DNA of 64,000 nt from Bacteroidota bacterium (GTDB taxonomy: Bacteria > Bacteroidota > Bacteroidia > Bacteroidales > F082). The translations under genes and the position numbers were made by a program. The stretch lies in contig WOUZ01000005.1 in NCBI GenBank assembly GCA_009773165.1, forward strand, positions 124,001 through 188,000, given 5' to 3'. A model generated the notes under the pieces. The model was given only the letters and a program-made list of their open reading frames with translations. It had not been told where the DNA came from and did not search any database. Positions 45,889 through 53,427 of this stretch are shown in pieces; the first letter of the stretch is position 1, and the number at the start of each line of letters is the position of its first letter.

Positions 45889-45917
45889 ATTGTTATTTCA
45901 AAATAAACTTATTTTTG
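45889..45917 (+). promoter_or_regulatory. Promoter of the trp operon
   Basis: ATTG (45889-45892) and TATTTTTG (45910-45917) are separated by 17 bases. The -7 element is a consensus match; the spacer is a little short. It ends 29 bases before the trp leader-peptide ATG, the position expected for an attenuated transcript. Confidence 0.55.
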
Positions 45918-45946
45918 CAGCCGATCCTGTATATAAAAAGGGCATA

Positions 45947-45994
45947 ATGAAAAGAAATTCTAACAATTGGTGGTGGCATCGTTTATCAACTTGA
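45947..45994 (+). CDS. trpL: trp operon leader peptide
   Basis: ATG 45947 to TGA 45992-45994 encodes MKRNSNNWWWHRLST, 15 residues with three consecutive tryptophan codons (45968-45976). It is followed by a hairpin-terminator and then trpE, the classical arrangement for ribosome-mediated attenuation: stalling at the Trp codons when charged tRNA-Trp is low should favour read-through. The segment carrying the Trp codons (45972-45980) can pair with 46009-46017 at 8 of 9 positions, forming the pause (1:2) hairpin. The translation has not been tested but three Trp codons in 15 are very unlikely by chance. Confidence 0.85.
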   Translation: MKRNSNNWWWHRLST

Positions 45995-46030
45995 AAAGCT
46001 GATGAAATGATGTGACCATTTATAAAACAT

Positions 46031-46067
46031 AAAAAAAGGTCTGTCGTTCGCGGCAGGCCTTTTTTGT
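46031..46067 (+). terminator. trp attenuator terminator
   Basis: An intrinsic terminator precedes trpE by 15 bases: the arms 46031-46046 and 46051-46066 pair along a stem with two G-T wobbles, the loop is TTCG, and a T run follows. The base of its 5' arm (GGTC, 46038-46041) can instead pair with GACC at 46014-46017, at the end of the leader's region 2. That is a short candidate antiterminator core, with only 4 clear pairs seen. It completes the trpL attenuator. Confidence 0.85.
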
Positions 46068-46082
46068 TTCAACAAACAAGCT

Positions 46083-47483
46083 ATGAAATTTAACATTCAA
46101 CGTAAACACAGCTCCGGAGATCTTCACACACCAGTGGGTCTTTATCTCGCCTTGCGCGACATTTATCCTTCTGCACTTTTACTCGAGAGTTCAGATTATC
46201 ACTCTGCAGGAAACAGCTCATCCTATATATGCTTACAGCCTTTAAGCAGTTTTGTGGTAAACAAATCCAGGGTTGAGATCAGGATAAAAGACAAAGTTAA
46301 ACTAAGTGAAAATTCTGATTCACAACATGTTTTGGAATATCTTAGAAACTTCCTCGAAGATTTCAATCAGGAAGGTCTTGAGGCTGGCGATGGAATTTAT
46401 GGGTATATCAGCTACGATGCTATCCAATTTTTTGAAGATATCGAGATTAACAAACGTGTTTCGAAAGATTTTGAACATCCTGAAATGATTTTCAGTGCTT
46501 TCCGGTTTGTGATTCATCTGAACCATTATAATGATAGTATGACGATCACGGAATTCTGCCCCGTTGATGAGGAGAGTACCTTTCCGCAACTAATGGCCCA
46601 TATCCACAATCAAAGAAATCCTGTTTTTCCATTTTCAACAACGAGTGAAACTGTTTCGAACATGGATGATGAAAGCTTTTTAGAGATGGTTCGTAAAGCT
46701 AAAACGAATTGCCGCAGAGGAGATGTATTTCAGGTTGTTCTTTCGCGTCAGTTTTCGGTTTCATATAAAGGCGACGATTTGAATGTTTACAGGGCATTAA
46801 GACGCATAAACCCCTCACCTTATCTTTATTATTTCGACTATGGGAGCTTCCGTATTTTTGGGTCCTCTCCTGAGAGTCAGCTCAAGATAAAAAATGGGAT
46901 AGCGACTTTAAACCCAATCGCAGGCACTTACCGTCGCACAGGAAATGATGCAGCCGATAAGCAATTGGCTGAACAACTGGCACTTGATCCTAAAGAAAAC
47001 GCTGAACATGCCATGTTGGTTGATCTGGCTCGCAACGACCTCAGCCGCAGCTGCCGTAATGTTGAAGTGGAAACTTATAAAGAAGTTCAATATTTCAGTC
47101 ATGTTATTCACCTGGTTTCAAAAGTCACAGGCTCAATGAAACAGAAAAACAATATCATCCAAACCATCGCTGACACATTCCCTGCAGGCACTCTTTCCGG
47201 AGCGCCTAAGCACCGGGCAATGCAGATCATCGACTATCTTGAACCACAAAGCAGAGGTTTTTATGGTGGTGCAGTTGGGTTCATTAGCTTCAAAGGTGAT
47301 GTCAACCTGGCTATTCTTATCCGCTCGTTTTTAAGTAAAAACAATCAGTTATTTTTTCAGGCAGGTGCAGGAATCGTAAATGCCTCTGATATTCACAGCG
47401 AATTGCAGGAGGTGAATAACAAACTGGCTGCTCTTCATAAAGCAATCGTCGTGGCATCTGATACAAACACAATAACTCATTGA
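46083..47483 (+). CDS. trpE: Anthranilate synthase component I
   Basis: Converts chorismate to anthranilate with ammonia supplied by TrpG. The 466-residue protein has the N-terminal tryptophan-binding motif LLESSDYHSAG, so feedback inhibition by Trp is expected, and the catalytic chorismate-binding domain: FQVVLSRQFSV, PSPYLYYFDYGSFRIFGSSPE, IAGTYRRTGNDAAD, DLARNDLSR and TFPAGTLSGAPKHRAMQIID. It is the first structural gene after the attenuator; trpG starts after a single base. Confidence 0.96.
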   Translation: MKFNIQRKHSSGDLHTPVGLYLALRDIYPSALLLESSDYHSAGNSSSYICLQPLSSFVVNKSRVEIRIKDKVKLSENSDSQHVLEYLRNFLEDFNQEGLEAGDGIYGYISYDAIQFFEDIEINKRVSKDFEHPEMIFSAFRFVIHLNHYNDSMTITEFCPVDEESTFPQLMAHIHNQRNPVFPFSTTSETVSNMDDESFLEMVRKAKTNCRRGDVFQVVLSRQFSVSYKGDDLNVYRALRRINPSPYLYYFDYGSFRIFGSSPESQLKIKNGIATLNPIAGTYRRTGNDAADKQLAEQLALDPKENAEHAMLVDLARNDLSRSCRNVEVETYKEVQYFSHVIHLVSKVTGSMKQKNNIIQTIADTFPAGTLSGAPKHRAMQIIDYLEPQSRGFYGGAVGFISFKGDVNLAILIRSFLSKNNQLFFQAGAGIVNASDIHSELQEVNNKLAALHKAIVVASDTNTITH

Positions 47484-47484
47484 T

Positions 47485-48060
47485 ATGAAACTACTTGTAT
47501 TTGATAATTATGATTCATTCACCTACAACCTGGTGCATATGATTGAAAAAAATACTGGAATCGAGCCGGATGTTTTCCGCAACGACAAGATTCCACTTGA
47601 CAAAATTGCTGATTATGATAAAATCCTCTTATCACCTGGGCCAGGGCTTCCTTCCGAATCAGGAATTCTTATTGAATTGATAAAAACTTATGCGTCAACA
47701 AAAAGTATTTTTGGCGTTTGTCTTGGGCTTCAGGCGATGGCAGAGGCTTTTGGTGGCAATCTTGAAAACCTTGAAAGTGTTTATCATGGCGTTGCAACTG
47801 ATGTTAGAGTGACAGATTCAAACGAACTACTTTTTAAGAATATGGCAGCTGTTTTTCAGGCAGGGCGTTACCACTCCTGGGTAGCAGAGAAATATTCATT
47901 ACCTGATTGCTTCAAAATTACTGCTGAAAGTGACGATGGCCTGATAATGGGTATCCGGCATAAGCAATTTGATTTGTCAGCTGTTCAGTTTCATCCTGAA
48001 TCGATTCTTACTACAAATGGAGAAAAAATACTCACAAACTGGCTAAACCAAACCACATGA
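47485..48060 (+). CDS. trpG: Anthranilate synthase component II (glutamine amidotransferase)
   Basis: A 191-residue class I glutamine amidotransferase delivering ammonia to TrpE. DNYDSFTYNLVHM is the conserved N-terminus, LLSPGPGLP the oxyanion strand, Cys79 in GVCLGLQAMAEAFGG the nucleophile, and His170/Glu172 in VQFHPESI complete the triad. It is separate from trpE, not fused. Its stop overlaps the trpD start by 4 bases. Confidence 0.96.
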   Translation: MKLLVFDNYDSFTYNLVHMIEKNTGIEPDVFRNDKIPLDKIADYDKILLSPGPGLPSESGILIELIKTYASTKSIFGVCLGLQAMAEAFGGNLENLESVYHGVATDVRVTDSNELLFKNMAAVFQAGRYHSWVAEKYSLPDCFKITAESDDGLIMGIRHKQFDLSAVQFHPESILTTNGEKILTNWLNQTT

Positions 48061-49046
48061 AAAAAATATTGGATAAACTCTATCAGCGACAACTTCTCGG
48101 TTATGAGGAAGCTCGTGAAATTCTAATCAAAATTGCACAAGGTCAATACAATCCTTCACAAATTGCATCATTTCTAACTGTTTTTATGATGCGGGGTGTT
48201 ACAGTTCAAGAACTTACGGGATTTAGAGATGCCTTGATGGAACTTTGTTTACCGGTTGATTTTGAAGGAATCGAGACCATCGATTTGTGCGGAACAGGCG
48301 GAGATGAAAAGAACACATTTAACATATCAACATTAGCCTCATTTGTGGTTGCAGCCGCCGGAATACCTGTTGCAAAGCATGGTAATTATGGTGTTTCAAG
48401 CATCAGTGGTTCGTCGAACGTACTGGAGTTTCTTGGGTACCAATTTAAAAATGACCGAGATCAACTTAAAAAGGAGTTAGTCGAAACCGGTATTTGCTTC
48501 ATGCATGCTCCTCTTTTTCACCCGGCTATGAAAACAGTTTCTCCGATTCGAAAAGAACTAGGCGTAAAAACATTTTTCAACATGTTAGGCCCTATGGTTA
48601 ACCCGTCAAAACCTACGTATCAGATGGTCGGGGTTTTCAGTCTCGAACTGGCAAGAATGTACCAATATATCTATCAGCAGGGCAATAGTAAATATGCAAT
48701 TGTTTATGGTTTAGATGGTTATGATGAGTGTTCACTTACTTCCGCTACCAAAATACTTAGTGGCAAAGGAGAAGATATTGTCGAATCAAAGGATTTCGGT
48801 TTAAAGCTTTGGAACCAAACTGATATTCATGGTGGGCAAAGTATCGAAGAAAGTGCGCGGATTTTTACTCAAGTACTTGAAGGTAAAGGAGAACAGGCAC
48901 AGGTAGAAGTGGTGCTTGCAAATGCAGCTATTGCTCTTCAATGTTGTTTTGACGAACAACTTACTGACAGCGTGACACGTGCACACGAAGCGCTTCAATC
49001 TGGTAAAGCACTTAAAATTTTCAACCAACTTATCTCAATGCAATGA
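48057..49046 (+). CDS. trpD: Anthranilate phosphoribosyltransferase
   Basis: Transfers phosphoribose from PRPP to anthranilate. The 329-residue protein has the PRPP and anthranilate motifs DLCGTGGDEKNTFNISTLAS, KHGNYGVSSISGSSNVLE and GVKTFFNMLGPMVNPS. The length is normal. It overlaps trpG and trpC by 4 bases each (ATGA and similar), indicating translational coupling. Confidence 0.96.
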   Translation: MKKILDKLYQRQLLGYEEAREILIKIAQGQYNPSQIASFLTVFMMRGVTVQELTGFRDALMELCLPVDFEGIETIDLCGTGGDEKNTFNISTLASFVVAAAGIPVAKHGNYGVSSISGSSNVLEFLGYQFKNDRDQLKKELVETGICFMHAPLFHPAMKTVSPIRKELGVKTFFNMLGPMVNPSKPTYQMVGVFSLELARMYQYIYQQGNSKYAIVYGLDGYDECSLTSATKILSGKGEDIVESKDFGLKLWNQTDIHGGQSIEESARIFTQVLEGKGEQAQVEVVLANAAIALQCCFDEQLTDSVTRAHEALQSGKALKIFNQLISMQ

Positions 49047-49846
49047 TACCTACAGAATTAGAAAAAATAGTTACAAACAAGGCTGCTGAAGTAGCCGAAC
49101 GTAAGAGTTTATATCCTGAAAAACTACTTCAAAAGAGTATTTTTTATAACTCAGATTGTGTTTCACTTAAAAAGTATTTATTACGTCCTGACCTAAGTGG
49201 AATTATCGCGGAATTTAAACGGAAATCACCTTCAAAAGGAAACATAAATCCTTATGCTTCAGTTGAATCAACGACCTTAGGTTATATGCAAGCCGGAGCT
49301 TCTGCTTTGTCGGTGCTCACCGATCAAAAGTTTTTTGGAGGAAGCAACGAAGATCTAATTACTGCCAGGAAATTCAACTTTTGTCCGATACTTCGTAAAG
49401 ATTTTATCATCGATCCCTACCAAATTATTGAGGCTAAATCCATTGGGGCCGATGTCATTCTATTGATTGCAGCGATTTTGACTGCCAAAGAAGTTAGAGA
49501 ATTTACAGAATTAGCAACCTCACTTGGGCTTGAAGTACTTCTTGAGTTGCACGAAGAAAGCGAAATAGAAAAAATCCCATCTACTTCAGTTTTGATTGGA
49601 ATCAACAACAGAAACCTAAAAACAATGGCTACTGACATTGAGACGTCAGCGAAACTAATTGGGAAACTACCAGAAGAATCGATAAAAATTGCAGAAAGTG
49701 GGATCAGAGATGCATCAACGATCTGTCAATTAAAAAAAATAGGATATCACGGTTTTCTTATTGGAGAGTATTTTATGCAGCATGCCCGTCCTGAGTTGGC
49801 TTGTCAGCAAATGATCAAAACTATGAAAACCATGATGCCATGCTAA
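49043..49846 (+). CDS. trpC: Indole-3-glycerol phosphate synthase
   Basis: Converts CdRP to indole-3-glycerol phosphate. A 267-residue TIM barrel with IIAEFKRKSPSKGNI (catalytic Lys), SVLTDQKFFGGS, FCPILRKDFIIDPYQIIEAKS, IGINNRNLKT and IAESGI. It is monofunctional: TrpF is encoded separately, with its start inside the trpC end (ATGCTAA). Confidence 0.96.
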   Translation: MIPTELEKIVTNKAAEVAERKSLYPEKLLQKSIFYNSDCVSLKKYLLRPDLSGIIAEFKRKSPSKGNINPYASVESTTLGYMQAGASALSVLTDQKFFGGSNEDLITARKFNFCPILRKDFIIDPYQIIEAKSIGADVILLIAAILTAKEVREFTELATSLGLEVLLELHEESEIEKIPSTSVLIGINNRNLKTMATDIETSAKLIGKLPEESIKIAESGIRDASTICQLKKIGYHGFLIGEYFMQHARPELACQQMIKTMKTMMPC

Positions 49847-50454
49847 AAATAAAGGTGTGTGGCATGCGTGACAAGGAAAATATCGAAGCATTGATCAAAC
49901 TTAAGCCCGATATCATTGGATTCATATATTCACCTGATTCAAAGCGTTTTGTTGGGTATGATTTTGAATTTCCAAAAATTGATAACATCCAAAAAGCCGG
50001 TGTATTTGTAAATTCACGTCTGGATCTAATCTTTACACAAGCTTCAAAAAACACCCTTGACATTATTCAACTTCATGGTGATGAATCACCTGAAATGTGT
50101 AAAAATTTAAAAGATTCGGGCTTTTACATAATTAAGGTGTTCCGAATCGGACCAAACTTTAGCTTCTTCCCAATAGAGTCTTACTTAGATTCTTGTGACG
50201 CCTTTCTTTTCGACACCGATGGTAAAACACCGGGTGGAAATGGATATCATTTCGATTGGAAGATACTGGACAACTATCCTTTTTCGAAAGAGTTCTTCCT
50301 GAGTGGCGGACTAGGGCCGGAAGATGCTTTAGAAATAAAGCGTTTAAAGCATCCACTTCTTACAGGAATCGATGTCAACAGCCGGTTTGAGATCCAGCCT
50401 GGAGTAAAAAACATTGAAAATTTAAAACAATTCATTCATGATATCAGAGAATAA
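49840..50454 (+). CDS. trpF: Phosphoribosylanthranilate isomerase
   Basis: Amadori rearrangement of PRA to CdRP. Start ATG 49840 gives [18 protein letters not shown], with the catalytic Cys7 in KVCGM, and overlaps trpC by 7 bases; an in-frame start at 49801 would add an unconserved leader within trpC. The catalytic aspartate lies in [14 protein letters not shown], and [12 protein letters not shown] and GIDVNSRFE are the phosphate-binding segments. 204 residues, normal length. Confidence 0.94.
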
Positions 50455-51646
50455 ATTATTTGAAGTTAGCGAGGATGGCTTCTATGGCGAGTTTGGCGGG
50501 GCATTTATACCTGAAATGCTTTATGCAAATGTTAAGCAATTGCAGACTCAATACCTTGATATATTGTCACTTACGTCATTCAAAAATGCTTATGACAACC
50601 TTCTTCGGGATTATGTTGGCCGACCCACACCTCTTTATGAGGCATTGAATCTGTCGAAAAAGTATGGTGCCCGCGTTTTTTTAAAGCGTGAAGACCTGAA
50701 TCACACAGGAGCACATAAAATAAACAATACAGTCGGGCAGGTGCTTTTAGCAAAACATCTTGGTAAAAAACGCATTATTGCTGAAACAGGAGCAGGTCAG
50801 CACGGAGTAGCGACAGCAACTGTTTGTGCCCTTATGCAACTTGAATGTGTAGTTTATATGGGAGCTGTTGACATAATTCGTCAAGCTCCTAATGTGGCAC
50901 GAATGAAGATGTTAGGTGCAAAAGTTGTGCCTGCTGTCAGTGGTAGCCGCACGCTGAAAGATGCCACAAACGAAGCAATTCGCGACTGGATCAACCATCC
51001 CGAAGACACCCATTATATTATTGGATCGGTGGTTGGTCCACACCCTTATCCCGACCTTGTGGCTCGCCTTCAAGCAGTTATTTCGGAAGAAATTATGCAA
51101 CAGTTAAAAACACAAACAGGCTCTGCTGATCCTGATTATGTGATTGCATGTGTTGGGGGTGGAAGCAATGCAGCAGGAGCCTTCTATCATTTTTTACACA
51201 ATGAAAAGGTTCAACTTATTGGTGCTGAAGCAGCCGGAGAAGGGATCGAATCAGGAAAAACAGCCGCATCACTTGTTGTTGGTAAAAGAGGCGTCATTCA
51301 TGGTTGTATGACCTCGCTTATGCAAACTGCCGATGGACAAATTGTTGAACCCCATTCTATTTCGGCAGGGTTGGATTATCCCGGAATCGGACCTCTTCAT
51401 GCCCATCTTTTTCAAACCGGAAGGGCATTATACAACAGCATAACCGATCAGGAAGCCCTTGATGCTGCTTTTGAACTTGCAAAAATGGAAGGAATTATAC
51501 CTGCATTGGAAAGCGCTCATGCACTTGCTGTTTTACCAAAAAGACACTGGAAAAAAGAAGATGTGATTGTTGTAAACCTCTCAGGAAGAGGAGATAAAGA
51601 TCTTGATACGTATATGAAAAATCTACCATCTTATGAACAGGCTTGA
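50438..51646 (+). CDS. trpB: Tryptophan synthase beta chain
   Basis: Condenses indole with serine. The 402-residue TrpB1-type protein shows [12 protein letters not shown], Lys94 in [14 protein letters not shown] as PLP-binding lysine, [12 protein letters not shown], the phosphate-cradling [12 protein letters not shown] and LSGRGDKDL. It overlaps trpF by 17 and trpA by 14 bases, so the three are tightly coupled. Confidence 0.97.
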
Positions 51647-52409
51647 AGCACATTTTACCAACAAACCAAAAAGAAATCTTGCAATTTACTTTTCAGCTGG
51701 TTACCCATCGATTGAAAGTATTGAACCAATAATTCTAACTCTTGAGCAAAATGGTGCCGATATCATTGAAATAGGAATGGCTTTTTCTGATCCACTTGCT
51801 GACGGTCCTGTCATTCAAAATAGCGGCACTTTAGCACTTGCCAATGGCATTACAACCGTAAAGATTTTTAATGAGCTGTCGACTATTCGTCAAAAAACAG
51901 ATTTACCTCTTGTTTTGATGGGATACCTCAATCCAGTTTTACAGTTTGGTTTCGAAGAATTCTTAAAGCAAGCATCTTTAACGGGGATTGACGGACTTAT
52001 TCTTCCTGATTTACCTTTAGAGATATTTGAACGGGATTACAAGACCCTTTATGAGTTTTATAATATTTTTCCAATCTTTCTCATCACTCCACAAACACCC
52101 GACGATAGGATTCATCATATCGATAAACTGAGTAAAGGATTTATTTATGCTGTATCCTCCTCATCTACAACTGGTTCATCCGAAGGGTTCAGTTTATCAC
52201 ATATCCGGTATTTCGAACGGCTTCAATCATTAAATCTTTCAAATCCTTTAATGATAGGCTTTGGCATCTCTAACCAAAAAACATTAGAAACCGTTTTTGA
52301 CAATGCTTCCGGAGCAATTATTGGAAGTGCATTTATCAAAAATCTTCAACCTTCTGCAAAAGATTATGGTATTACACAGTTTATGAATCAATTATTAAAC
52401 GAACAGTAA
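51633..52409 (+). CDS. trpA: Tryptophan synthase alpha chain
   Basis: Cleaves indole-3-glycerol phosphate and passes indole to TrpB. A 258-residue TIM barrel with catalytic Glu46 in [14 protein letters not shown] and Asp57 in PLADGPVIQ, then LPDLPLE and [13 protein letters not shown]. The residue before FSDP is Ala instead of the commoner Pro. It overlaps trpB by 14 bases and is followed after one base by the DAHP synthase gene. Confidence 0.95.
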
Positions 52410-52410
52410 A

Positions 52411-53427
52411 ATGATCATTCAACTCAAAAAAAATATTACTACAGAACAAAAACTATCTGTCATACAAGCAATTGAGAAAGTCAACTATCAGGTTAATGAA
52501 GTTAAAACCCAATACGGACATTATCTAATTGCAGTTGGGAAAAAAGAGTTTGACATCCGGAAAATCGGACATTTGAAAGGTATTGACGACATTCACAGGG
52601 TCACTGATTCCTACAAACTTGTATCTAAAAAATGGAGGGTTCACGACACAGATGTTGATCTGGGGGACGGAATTCATGTGAACAGGCAACAATTCTCCAT
52701 TATGGCAGGACCATGTTCGATAGAAAGTCCGGAACAGATTGATCAAACAATTGAGCACCTAAAAACGCACAACATCCGAATGATGCGCGGAGGTGTTTTC
52801 AAACCCCGTACCTCCCCTTACGCATTTCGTGGTGTTGGGTTGGAAGGGTTAAAAATATTCTCGGAAAAATGCAGAGCTGCCGGGATAAAGGTGGTTACTG
52901 AAGTGATGCAGGTATCACAAGTTGCTGAGATGCATGATTATGTAGATATTTTTCAAGTTGGCACCCGTAATGCGCAAAATTTCAATCTACTGGATGAACT
53001 TGGCAAGACAAATAAAGCAGTGATGCTGAAAAGAGGTTTTTCAGGCACGATTGAAGAATTGCTTCAGGCTGCAGAGTACGTTTTCTCTAACGGTAACGAA
53101 AAAATTATTCTTTGTGAACGCGGCATACGCACCTACGAAACTGCTTACCGTAACACCCTCGATCTAAACGCAGTACCCATTCTAAAAGAAAAATCTCATT
53201 TGCCTGTCATTGTTGATCCTTCGCATGGGGTTGGTTTGAGAAATTATATCGAACCAATGGCTCTTGCGGCTACAATGGCTGGCGCTGATGGTGTTATTGT
53301 TGAAGTGCATCAATGTCCCGAAAAAGCATTATCCGATGGGCAACAGACTCTTAATTACCCGGAAGCAAAACAACTCTATGAACGTTTACATGCTACTTAT
53401 GCGTTAAGAAAAAGCTTCAACGGATAA
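52411..53427 (+). CDS. 3-deoxy-7-phosphoheptulonate synthase with N-terminal regulatory domain
   Basis: The first enzyme of the shikimate pathway (DAHP synthase), 338 residues. An N-terminal ferredoxin-like domain (about 1-70, MIIQLKKNITTEQKLSVIQ) resembles the regulatory domain of the type I-beta (Thermotoga-like) enzymes. The catalytic barrel shows IMAGPCSIESPEQI, FKPRTSPYAFRGVGLEGLKI, MLKRGFSGTIEE, LCERGIRTYET and VDPSHGVGL. Placed one base after trpA, it should share the trp attenuator, linking entry into aromatic synthesis with Trp supply. A strong terminator follows. Confidence 0.93.
   Translation: MIIQLKKNITTEQKLSVIQAIEKVNYQVNEVKTQYGHYLIAVGKKEFDIRKIGHLKGIDDIHRVTDSYKLVSKKWRVHDTDVDLGDGIHVNRQQFSIMAGPCSIESPEQIDQTIEHLKTHNIRMMRGGVFKPRTSPYAFRGVGLEGLKIFSEKCRAAGIKVVTEVMQVSQVAEMHDYVDIFQVGTRNAQNFNLLDELGKTNKAVMLKRGFSGTIEELLQAAEYVFSNGNEKIILCERGIRTYETAYRNTLDLNAVPILKEKSHLPVIVDPSHGVGLRNYIEPMALAATMAGADGVIVEVHQCPEKALSDGQQTLNYPEAKQLYERLHATYALRKSFNG

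Follow-up and report, generated by a model that had tools for sequence, protein, structure and literature searches.

A predicted leader-peptide attenuator of the Bacteroid-trp kind upstream of the tryptophan operon in a Bacteroidales genome

Background

The trp attenuator of E. coli combines Trp codons in a leader open reading frame (ORF), two of them adjacent, with a 1:2 hairpin, an antiterminator made of the terminator 5′ arm and the bases before it, and a terminator ahead of trpE. For Bacteroidetes, RF01692 was listed in 2010 as Bacteroid-trp, a probable cis-regulatory RNA (PMC2864571). Bacteroid-Trp has since been likened to the E. coli attenuator and found conserved before the F. psychrophilum trp operon (PMC6414381), strong clues of leader-peptide attenuation before amino-acid biosynthesis operons have been described in that species (PMC9723704), leader-peptide-like ORFs are mentioned for B. 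thetaiotaomicron (PMC7366714), and PMC4833913 cites a study of attenuation regulation by Lopatovskaya and colleagues.

Here we analyse a leader in a window of 64,000 nucleotides (positions 124,001 to 188,000 of contig WOUZ01000005.1, assembly GCA_009773165.1) from a Bacteroidota bacterium of the Bacteroidales family F082. A preliminary description had read it as a ribosome-mediated trp attenuator of a sort less documented in Bacteroidota than in Proteobacteria. The proposed mechanism is supported by the parts and predicted folds of the leader and strengthened by its relatives, but the claim of novelty is weak, since Bacteroid-trp was published in 2010. With that family and F. psychrophilum in print, it is experimental proof that is scarce, and our searches of open-access literature turned up no laboratory demonstration of trp attenuation in Bacteroidota. 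The switch in the window is an ordinary, very clear case of a known switch; from its sequence and modelled folding we put the probability that it is a tryptophan attenuator with a leader peptide, of the Bacteroid-trp type, at roughly 0.9.

Results

Leader architecture

The trp genes of the window lie on the forward strand in the order trpE-G-D-C-F-B-A, with a DAHP synthase gene, in a single run (46083–53427). The first gene of the operon, trpE (46083–47483), has TIGR00564 trpE_most as its best NCBIfam model at 404.9 bits, below the curated cut-off of 517.7; trpG, trpD, trpC, trpF, trpB, trpA and the DAHP synthase gene occupy 47485–53427, with model matches for trpF also below curated cut-offs. 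Upstream on the same strand, a predicted −7 promoter element (TATTTTTG, 45910–45917, consensus TAHHTTTG) ends 29 nt before the ATG of a 15-codon, presumably translated leader ORF (MKRNSNNWWWHRLST, 45947–45994, ATG at 45947 and TGA at 45992–45994). Because the G of this box sits at −5 in F. johnsoniae (PMC6847099), transcription would start at about 45922 and the predicted 5′ UTR would be 25 nt long. The three consecutive Trp codons noticed at the outset are present (45968–45976) and are invariant across nine aligned leaders.

The Trp-codon arm (45969–45988) is predicted to pair with 46000–46020 in a sequestering 1:2 hairpin (45969–46020) with 19 pairs and a further 3-bp stem inside (−22.0 kcal/mol), which is supported by folding and by R1 × R2 co-variation in 49 clusters; the shorter pairing first noticed, of 45972–45980 with 46009–46017 (8 of 9), falls inside it. 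The antiterminator arm R2 (45998–46021) has as its predicted partner 46034–46054, which comprises the terminator 5′ arm, the UUCG loop and four bases at the start of the 3′ arm, and both are supported by folding and by conservation of the pairs in relatives. A possible 4-bp switch to the terminator arm had been suggested earlier; this pairing exists (GACC at 46014–46017 with GGUC at 46038–46041) but understates an antiterminator of 20 bp. The strong TTCG-loop terminator described before trpE is recovered as a predicted intrinsic terminator at 46032–46065, with a 15-bp stem, the UUCG loop and a T run (−19.5 kcal/mol), 17 nt from trpE; a simple terminator scan missed it (0 found).

The stretch TGATGAAWTGATGTGA (46000–46015), kept in near relatives, contains overlapping stop and start codons (TGATG twice, and ATG-TGA). 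The need of R2 to pair most likely explains these overlaps; alternatively, they may permit reinitiation.

Relation to described leaders

RF01692 matches 45927–46045 over all 131 model positions at 37.2 bits, against a gathering score of 49 bits, so that by Rfam's own rule the window falls outside the family; no Rfam family exceeds its cut-off anywhere in the window. Of 20 further chosen trp-leader loci, four pass the RF01692 cut-off, none of them from the eight near relatives in the set (seven from the window's genus and one from its family). As 16 of the 20 score below 49 bits, the cut-off leaves out most leaders that we tested and appears too strict for so broad a group. The window leader has the features of Bacteroid-trp (an ORF with consecutive Trp codons, a hairpin over these codons, and a position before Bacteroidota trp genes), and its position, components and alternative predicted folds are like those of Bacteroid-trp, to which it is most likely homologous. 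The RF01692 model has in common with it the site before trp genes, the leader-peptide logic, the Trp-codon hairpin and the start of the terminator; unlike the window leader, the model ends in the terminator 5′ arm and, in its printed form, holds no antiterminator pairs.

Compared with the general architecture of the E. coli leader, rather than with its sequence, the window shares the Trp-codon ORF, the 1:2 hairpin, the antiterminator and the terminator before trpE, but has three adjacent Trp codons instead of two and an antiterminator that takes up all of the terminator loop and reaches into the beginning of the 3′ arm. It also differs in having no Shine-Dalgarno context, a feature of the phylum according to PMC6847099. 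The attenuators inferred in F. psychrophilum, a flavobacterium of another order, likewise imply leader-peptide attenuation; in the accessible text of that literature the likeness is drawn without antiterminator anatomy.

Conservation among relatives

We aligned the window leader with seven others of its genus (L029, L030 and L006–L010) and one of its family (L011). The Trp codons, R2 and the terminator are nearly letter-identical in these nine leaders, L010 being the most divergent. The antiterminator core keeps 17 of 17 pairs in eight of the nine (window included) and 14 of 17 in L010, and the 1:2 hairpin keeps between 13 and 19 of its 19 pairs. Outside L010, variation within 45998–46017 is confined to the bulged base 46007 and to 46017, which keeps its pair as C-G or U-G. 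Because nearly all pairs are invariant, this near-relative evidence is one of conservation and not of covariation.

Among 61 genomes (the window's own and 60 relatives), 26 contain TrpE at E ≤ 1e-60. An ORF with WW(W) lies within 350 nt of the TrpE match in 20 of the 26, window included, and farther upstream (>350 nt) in four more (L020, L023, L024 and L028), giving 24 of 26. The other two, L013 and L025, have no accepted WW(W) ORF in the 1500 nt upstream of TrpE, their WW matches being other frames of an apparent preceding gene. At such a criterion, TrpE is found in none of the remaining 35 genomes, which include members of the window's own genus, family and order; assembly gaps or diverged TrpE could contribute, and tryptophan synthesis may often have been lost in the family to which the window belongs. 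Among named Bacteroidota loci, 19 of 20 have a WW(W) ORF within 700 nt upstream, L033 being the exception. Gallibacterium, a 21st locus, was not counted; L029 and L030 are duplicates of L004 and L005, and L040 has the same leader as L035.

A sample of 296 genomes from the phylum contained 70 with TrpE at E ≤ 1e-100 (the window's own, one of the same order, 66 of the same class and two of other classes). A WW(W) leader and a terminator stand upstream of 66 of the 69 further TrpE genes, about 1.4 kb upstream in L074. Two of the other three (L071 and L081) have WLW and a terminator-like hairpin, and L059, which belongs to one of the other classes, has none. Since these counts exclude the 226 genomes without TrpE at that threshold, their generality is limited to one class and does not extend to the whole phylum.

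Several leaders depart from the simple arrangement. L016 (minus strand of its locus) carries tandem trp leaders before one trpE, the first ORF with WWW and a terminator and then a second, and L075 also has two leader candidates before trpE. In L023, L024, L028 and L074 the trp leader lies about 1.36–1.42 kb before trpE, apparently ahead of the preceding gene, and trpE is probably not the first gene of the operon.

Predicted folding with and without a ribosome

By predicted folding, the Trp codons are placed such that a ribosome stalled on them would open the 1:2 hairpin, and folding and conservation agree that antiterminator and intrinsic terminator are mutually exclusive. In the mechanism that we propose, polymerase would start near 45922 and a ribosome would begin the 15-codon ORF close behind it. 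With charged tRNA-Trp scarce, the ribosome would stall at one of the three Trp codons and cover the 5′ arm of the 1:2 hairpin; R2 (45998–46021), thus freed, would capture the terminator 5′ arm, loop and 3′-arm start as they emerge, and transcription would continue into trpEGDCFBA. With tryptophan plentiful, the ribosome would arrive at the stop codon and depart, the 1:2 hairpin (−22.0) would sequester R2 and the terminator would form.

Folded with the RNA masked up to the leading edge of a Trp-stalled ribosome and ending at 46056, the leader forms one long helix of 20 bp between 45998–46021 and 46034–46054, with bulges or mismatches at 46002, 46007, 46013 and 46018. Without a ribosome, the 1:2 hairpin, complete in the window (19 of 19 pairs), retains R2 with a mean pair probability of 0.90–0.91. 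Predicted upstream pairing of the window's terminator arm and loop is accordingly 0.85 in the stalled state versus 0.04 with no ribosome. Full-length RNA favours the terminator in every state (−21.7 at 46066), so that antitermination has to be kinetic, presumably through trapping of the antiterminator. The Trp codons are closer to the stop in the window (15 nt) than in L005–L011 and L029 (24–30 nt), and a ribosome at the stop leaves upstream pairing of 0.71 in the window versus 0.05–0.32 in those leaders, which counts against the proposed mechanism. With its stop so close to the Trp codons, the window leader must depend on the ribosome being released and on the 1:2 hairpin.

Mean upstream pairing across 104 leaders was 0.68 stalled, 0.12 at the stop and 0.36 with no ribosome, and in 100 of them the fall between the stalled and at-stop states exceeded 0.2, the exceptions being the window (L003), L027, L093 and L115. 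(L021 and L039, without an ATG start, were left out of the 106 here and in the start-site counts; the choice of terminator was automatic, taking the stablest hairpin ahead of a T run, and looks wrong in some leaders, e.g. L093.) For 49 cluster representatives the three states gave 0.67, 0.16 and 0.31 with the real sequences versus 0.39, 0.25 and 0.42 with R2 shuffled (one shuffle per representative). The stalled-to-stop fall is thus partly mere masking, as the shuffled controls also fall from 0.39 to 0.25.

These folds bear on the possibility that the leader senses translation generally, responding to any stalled or missing ribosome with tryptophan as one of several inputs. The full pattern (stalled >0.3, no ribosome <0.15) appears in only 37 of the 104 leaders (21 of 49 representatives versus 2 of 49 shuffled), and in many of the rest the antiterminator also arises in naked RNA, substantial upstream pairing remaining with no ribosome (the mean of 0.36 above, n = 104, against 0.42 with R2 shuffled), as such general sensing would allow. 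Against it, Trp runs are nearly universal at the leader position and naked RNA of the window itself closes the 1:2 hairpin, and we regard general sensing as unlikely.

Co-variation of R2 with the terminator loop

For co-variation we used 106 leaders, 40 preselected as having a leader and 66 from the phylum sample. The 40 left out L013, L025 and L033 (none accepted), L004, L030 and L040 (duplicates of L029, L005 and L035) and L049, which is not from Bacteroidota. Leaders were grouped by shared 6-mers into 49 clusters, the largest of 29, and a representative's own pairing was compared with its pairing to the partners of other clusters over 1000 permutations; these statistics ignore kinship between clusters.

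The pairing R1 × R2 scored −14.87 with own versus −11.73 with other partners (z = −9.7, 0/1000 permutations), and R2 × terminator loop scored −6.96 versus −4.63 (z = −9.2, 0/1000 permutations). R2 gave z = −9.1 with the 5′ arm plus loop, −5.1 with the loop plus 3′ arm, −3.9 with the 5′ arm and −1.0 with the 3′ arm, and the negative control R1 × loop gave −0.7. With the first partner shuffled, mean z ranged from 0.0 to −1.6, the lowest individual z being −2.8; composition therefore accounts for some of each z. An earlier version with 28 clades agrees for the loop (z = −7.9) and the 3′ arm (z = −0.9) but differs for the 5′ arm alone (z = −0.2), and an antiterminator on the 5′ arm alone was rejected, the loop scoring far more strongly in both versions. 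R2 and its loop partners change together, for example GUGAG/CUCAC, GGGUGU/ACACCC, CGGGA/UCCCG and GGGAAA/UUUCCC, and the antiterminator in the sampled lineages is therefore centred on the terminator loop. That loop is UUCG in the window's genus (UCCG in L010) and CUC, UCAC or similar in many other lineages. In limited searches of open-access literature we found no statement of a loop-based antiterminator, and the R2–loop co-variation is an addition not found in print; more may be visible in the alignment that supplements the 2010 paper.

The terminator could also be a constitutive damper with no tryptophan switch, the small ORF encoding a small protein or being incidental. Its great stability and its success at full length fit such a damper, as does the shortness of the ORF. 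Against a damper stand the co-variation of R2 with R1 as well as with the terminator loop, and a peptide that differs between lineages outside the Trp run although Trp run, arms and terminator are all retained; we hold it quite improbable.

Occurrence in the window and genome

The 191-nt leader region folds with z = −3.89, one of 200 shuffles being equally stable. By itself TGGTGGTGG is frequent in the genome (85 sites versus 70 for the reversed control); the pattern of Trp run, spacer and terminator arm has a single genome-wide match, at this leader (control 0). The antiterminator (−14.9) was equalled in stability by 68 of 2000 shuffles of 45987–46030, which suggests that in one sequence by itself it is only moderately unusual; its support therefore comes from relatives. 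In 41 single leaders, no more than 10 of 200 shuffles reached the pairing with the 5′ arm plus loop in 13 and with the loop plus 3′ arm in 11, the window itself giving 21/200 and 60/200, respectively. With per-sequence results this weak, single leaders do not prove the antiterminator.

A candidate second attenuator (L002 1501–1617; G000:C29:156952-157068, minus strand) matched RF01692 at 26.2 bits (E = 2.1) and was rejected, the Trp-run-plus-terminator pattern occurring only once in the genome; the match, which no ORF of ≥80 aa overlaps, is probably chance. His-run leaders were likewise rejected, as CAYx5 gave four overlapping matches at two places and its reversed control five.

Sensing of tryptophan or of a protein independently of the ribosome (TRAP-like, T-box or riboswitch) is the least probable explanation, with nothing found in its favour, given that the genome (98.85% complete) has no match to TRAP (mtrB), for which the same search was positive in B. 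subtilis, nor to TrpR, for which the family search was positive in E. coli and B. subtilis, that Rfam offers no family at cut-off in the window, and that Trp-codon conservation would be left unexplained.

Predicted leader starts near the 5′ end

One fixed ATG was assigned to each leader, either the first in frame or the last in frame before the Trp codons. With the first, 72 of 104 leaders have a TAHHTTTG box no more than 60 nt upstream, and in 29 of these 72 (15 of 29 boxed representatives) the box ends 4–8 nt before the ATG; with the last, it does so in 24 of 76 (12 of 29 representatives). Among 373 other ORFs of ≥150 aa, a small control with many intra-operon ORFs, 22 had a box and two of these had it at 4–8 nt. 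In L071 and L081, the leader peptide MINNIHAWLWQGNSKQNCAGCV and a near copy of it have their ATG 6–7 nt after a TATTTTTG box. A box-to-ATG distance of 4 nt places the transcription start, by F. johnsoniae spacing, on the ATG itself, and from this spacing many of the relatives' leader ORFs are probably leaderless. The window leader, with its box 29 nt from the ATG, is excluded from this prediction. For comparison, published proportions of short or missing 5′ UTRs are low, with 5′ UTRs of <10 nt for about 3.7% in B. thetaiotaomicron (PMC7366714), 5.5% leaderless in F. psychrophilum (PMC9723704) and, from 87% above 10 nt, 13% with 5′ UTRs of ≤10 nt in F. johnsoniae (PMC6847099). No statement on leaderless trp leaders was found in limited searches of open-access literature, and the prediction of leaderless leader peptides is an addition not found in print.

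Discussion

To the known switch this analysis adds a corrected antiterminator, cross-lineage co-variation with the terminator loop and predicted leaderless leader peptides. A tentative broader reading, to which we give somewhat less than even odds, is that Bacteroidota have a trp attenuator of their own, with an antiterminator seeded on the apical loop of the terminator and with a leader peptide whose translation, in many lineages, begins right at the 5′ end of the transcript. The window's genus would then be a variant, its 20-bp antiterminator running over the whole 5′ arm and the UUCG loop and its predicted 25-nt 5′ UTR being ordinary.

The loop-seeded antiterminator is a precise and mutable prediction that is missing from the Rfam model. 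The leader, from an apparently uncultured Bacteroidales-type lineage, together with its many relatives, supports control of tryptophan operons by a coupled ribosome without Shine-Dalgarno sequences. As attenuation needs a ribosome close behind the polymerase, trp leaders offer a ready test of transcription-translation coupling in Bacteroidota. If true, a leader peptide at the 5′ end would load the ribosome at once in a phylum that lacks Shine-Dalgarno sequences.
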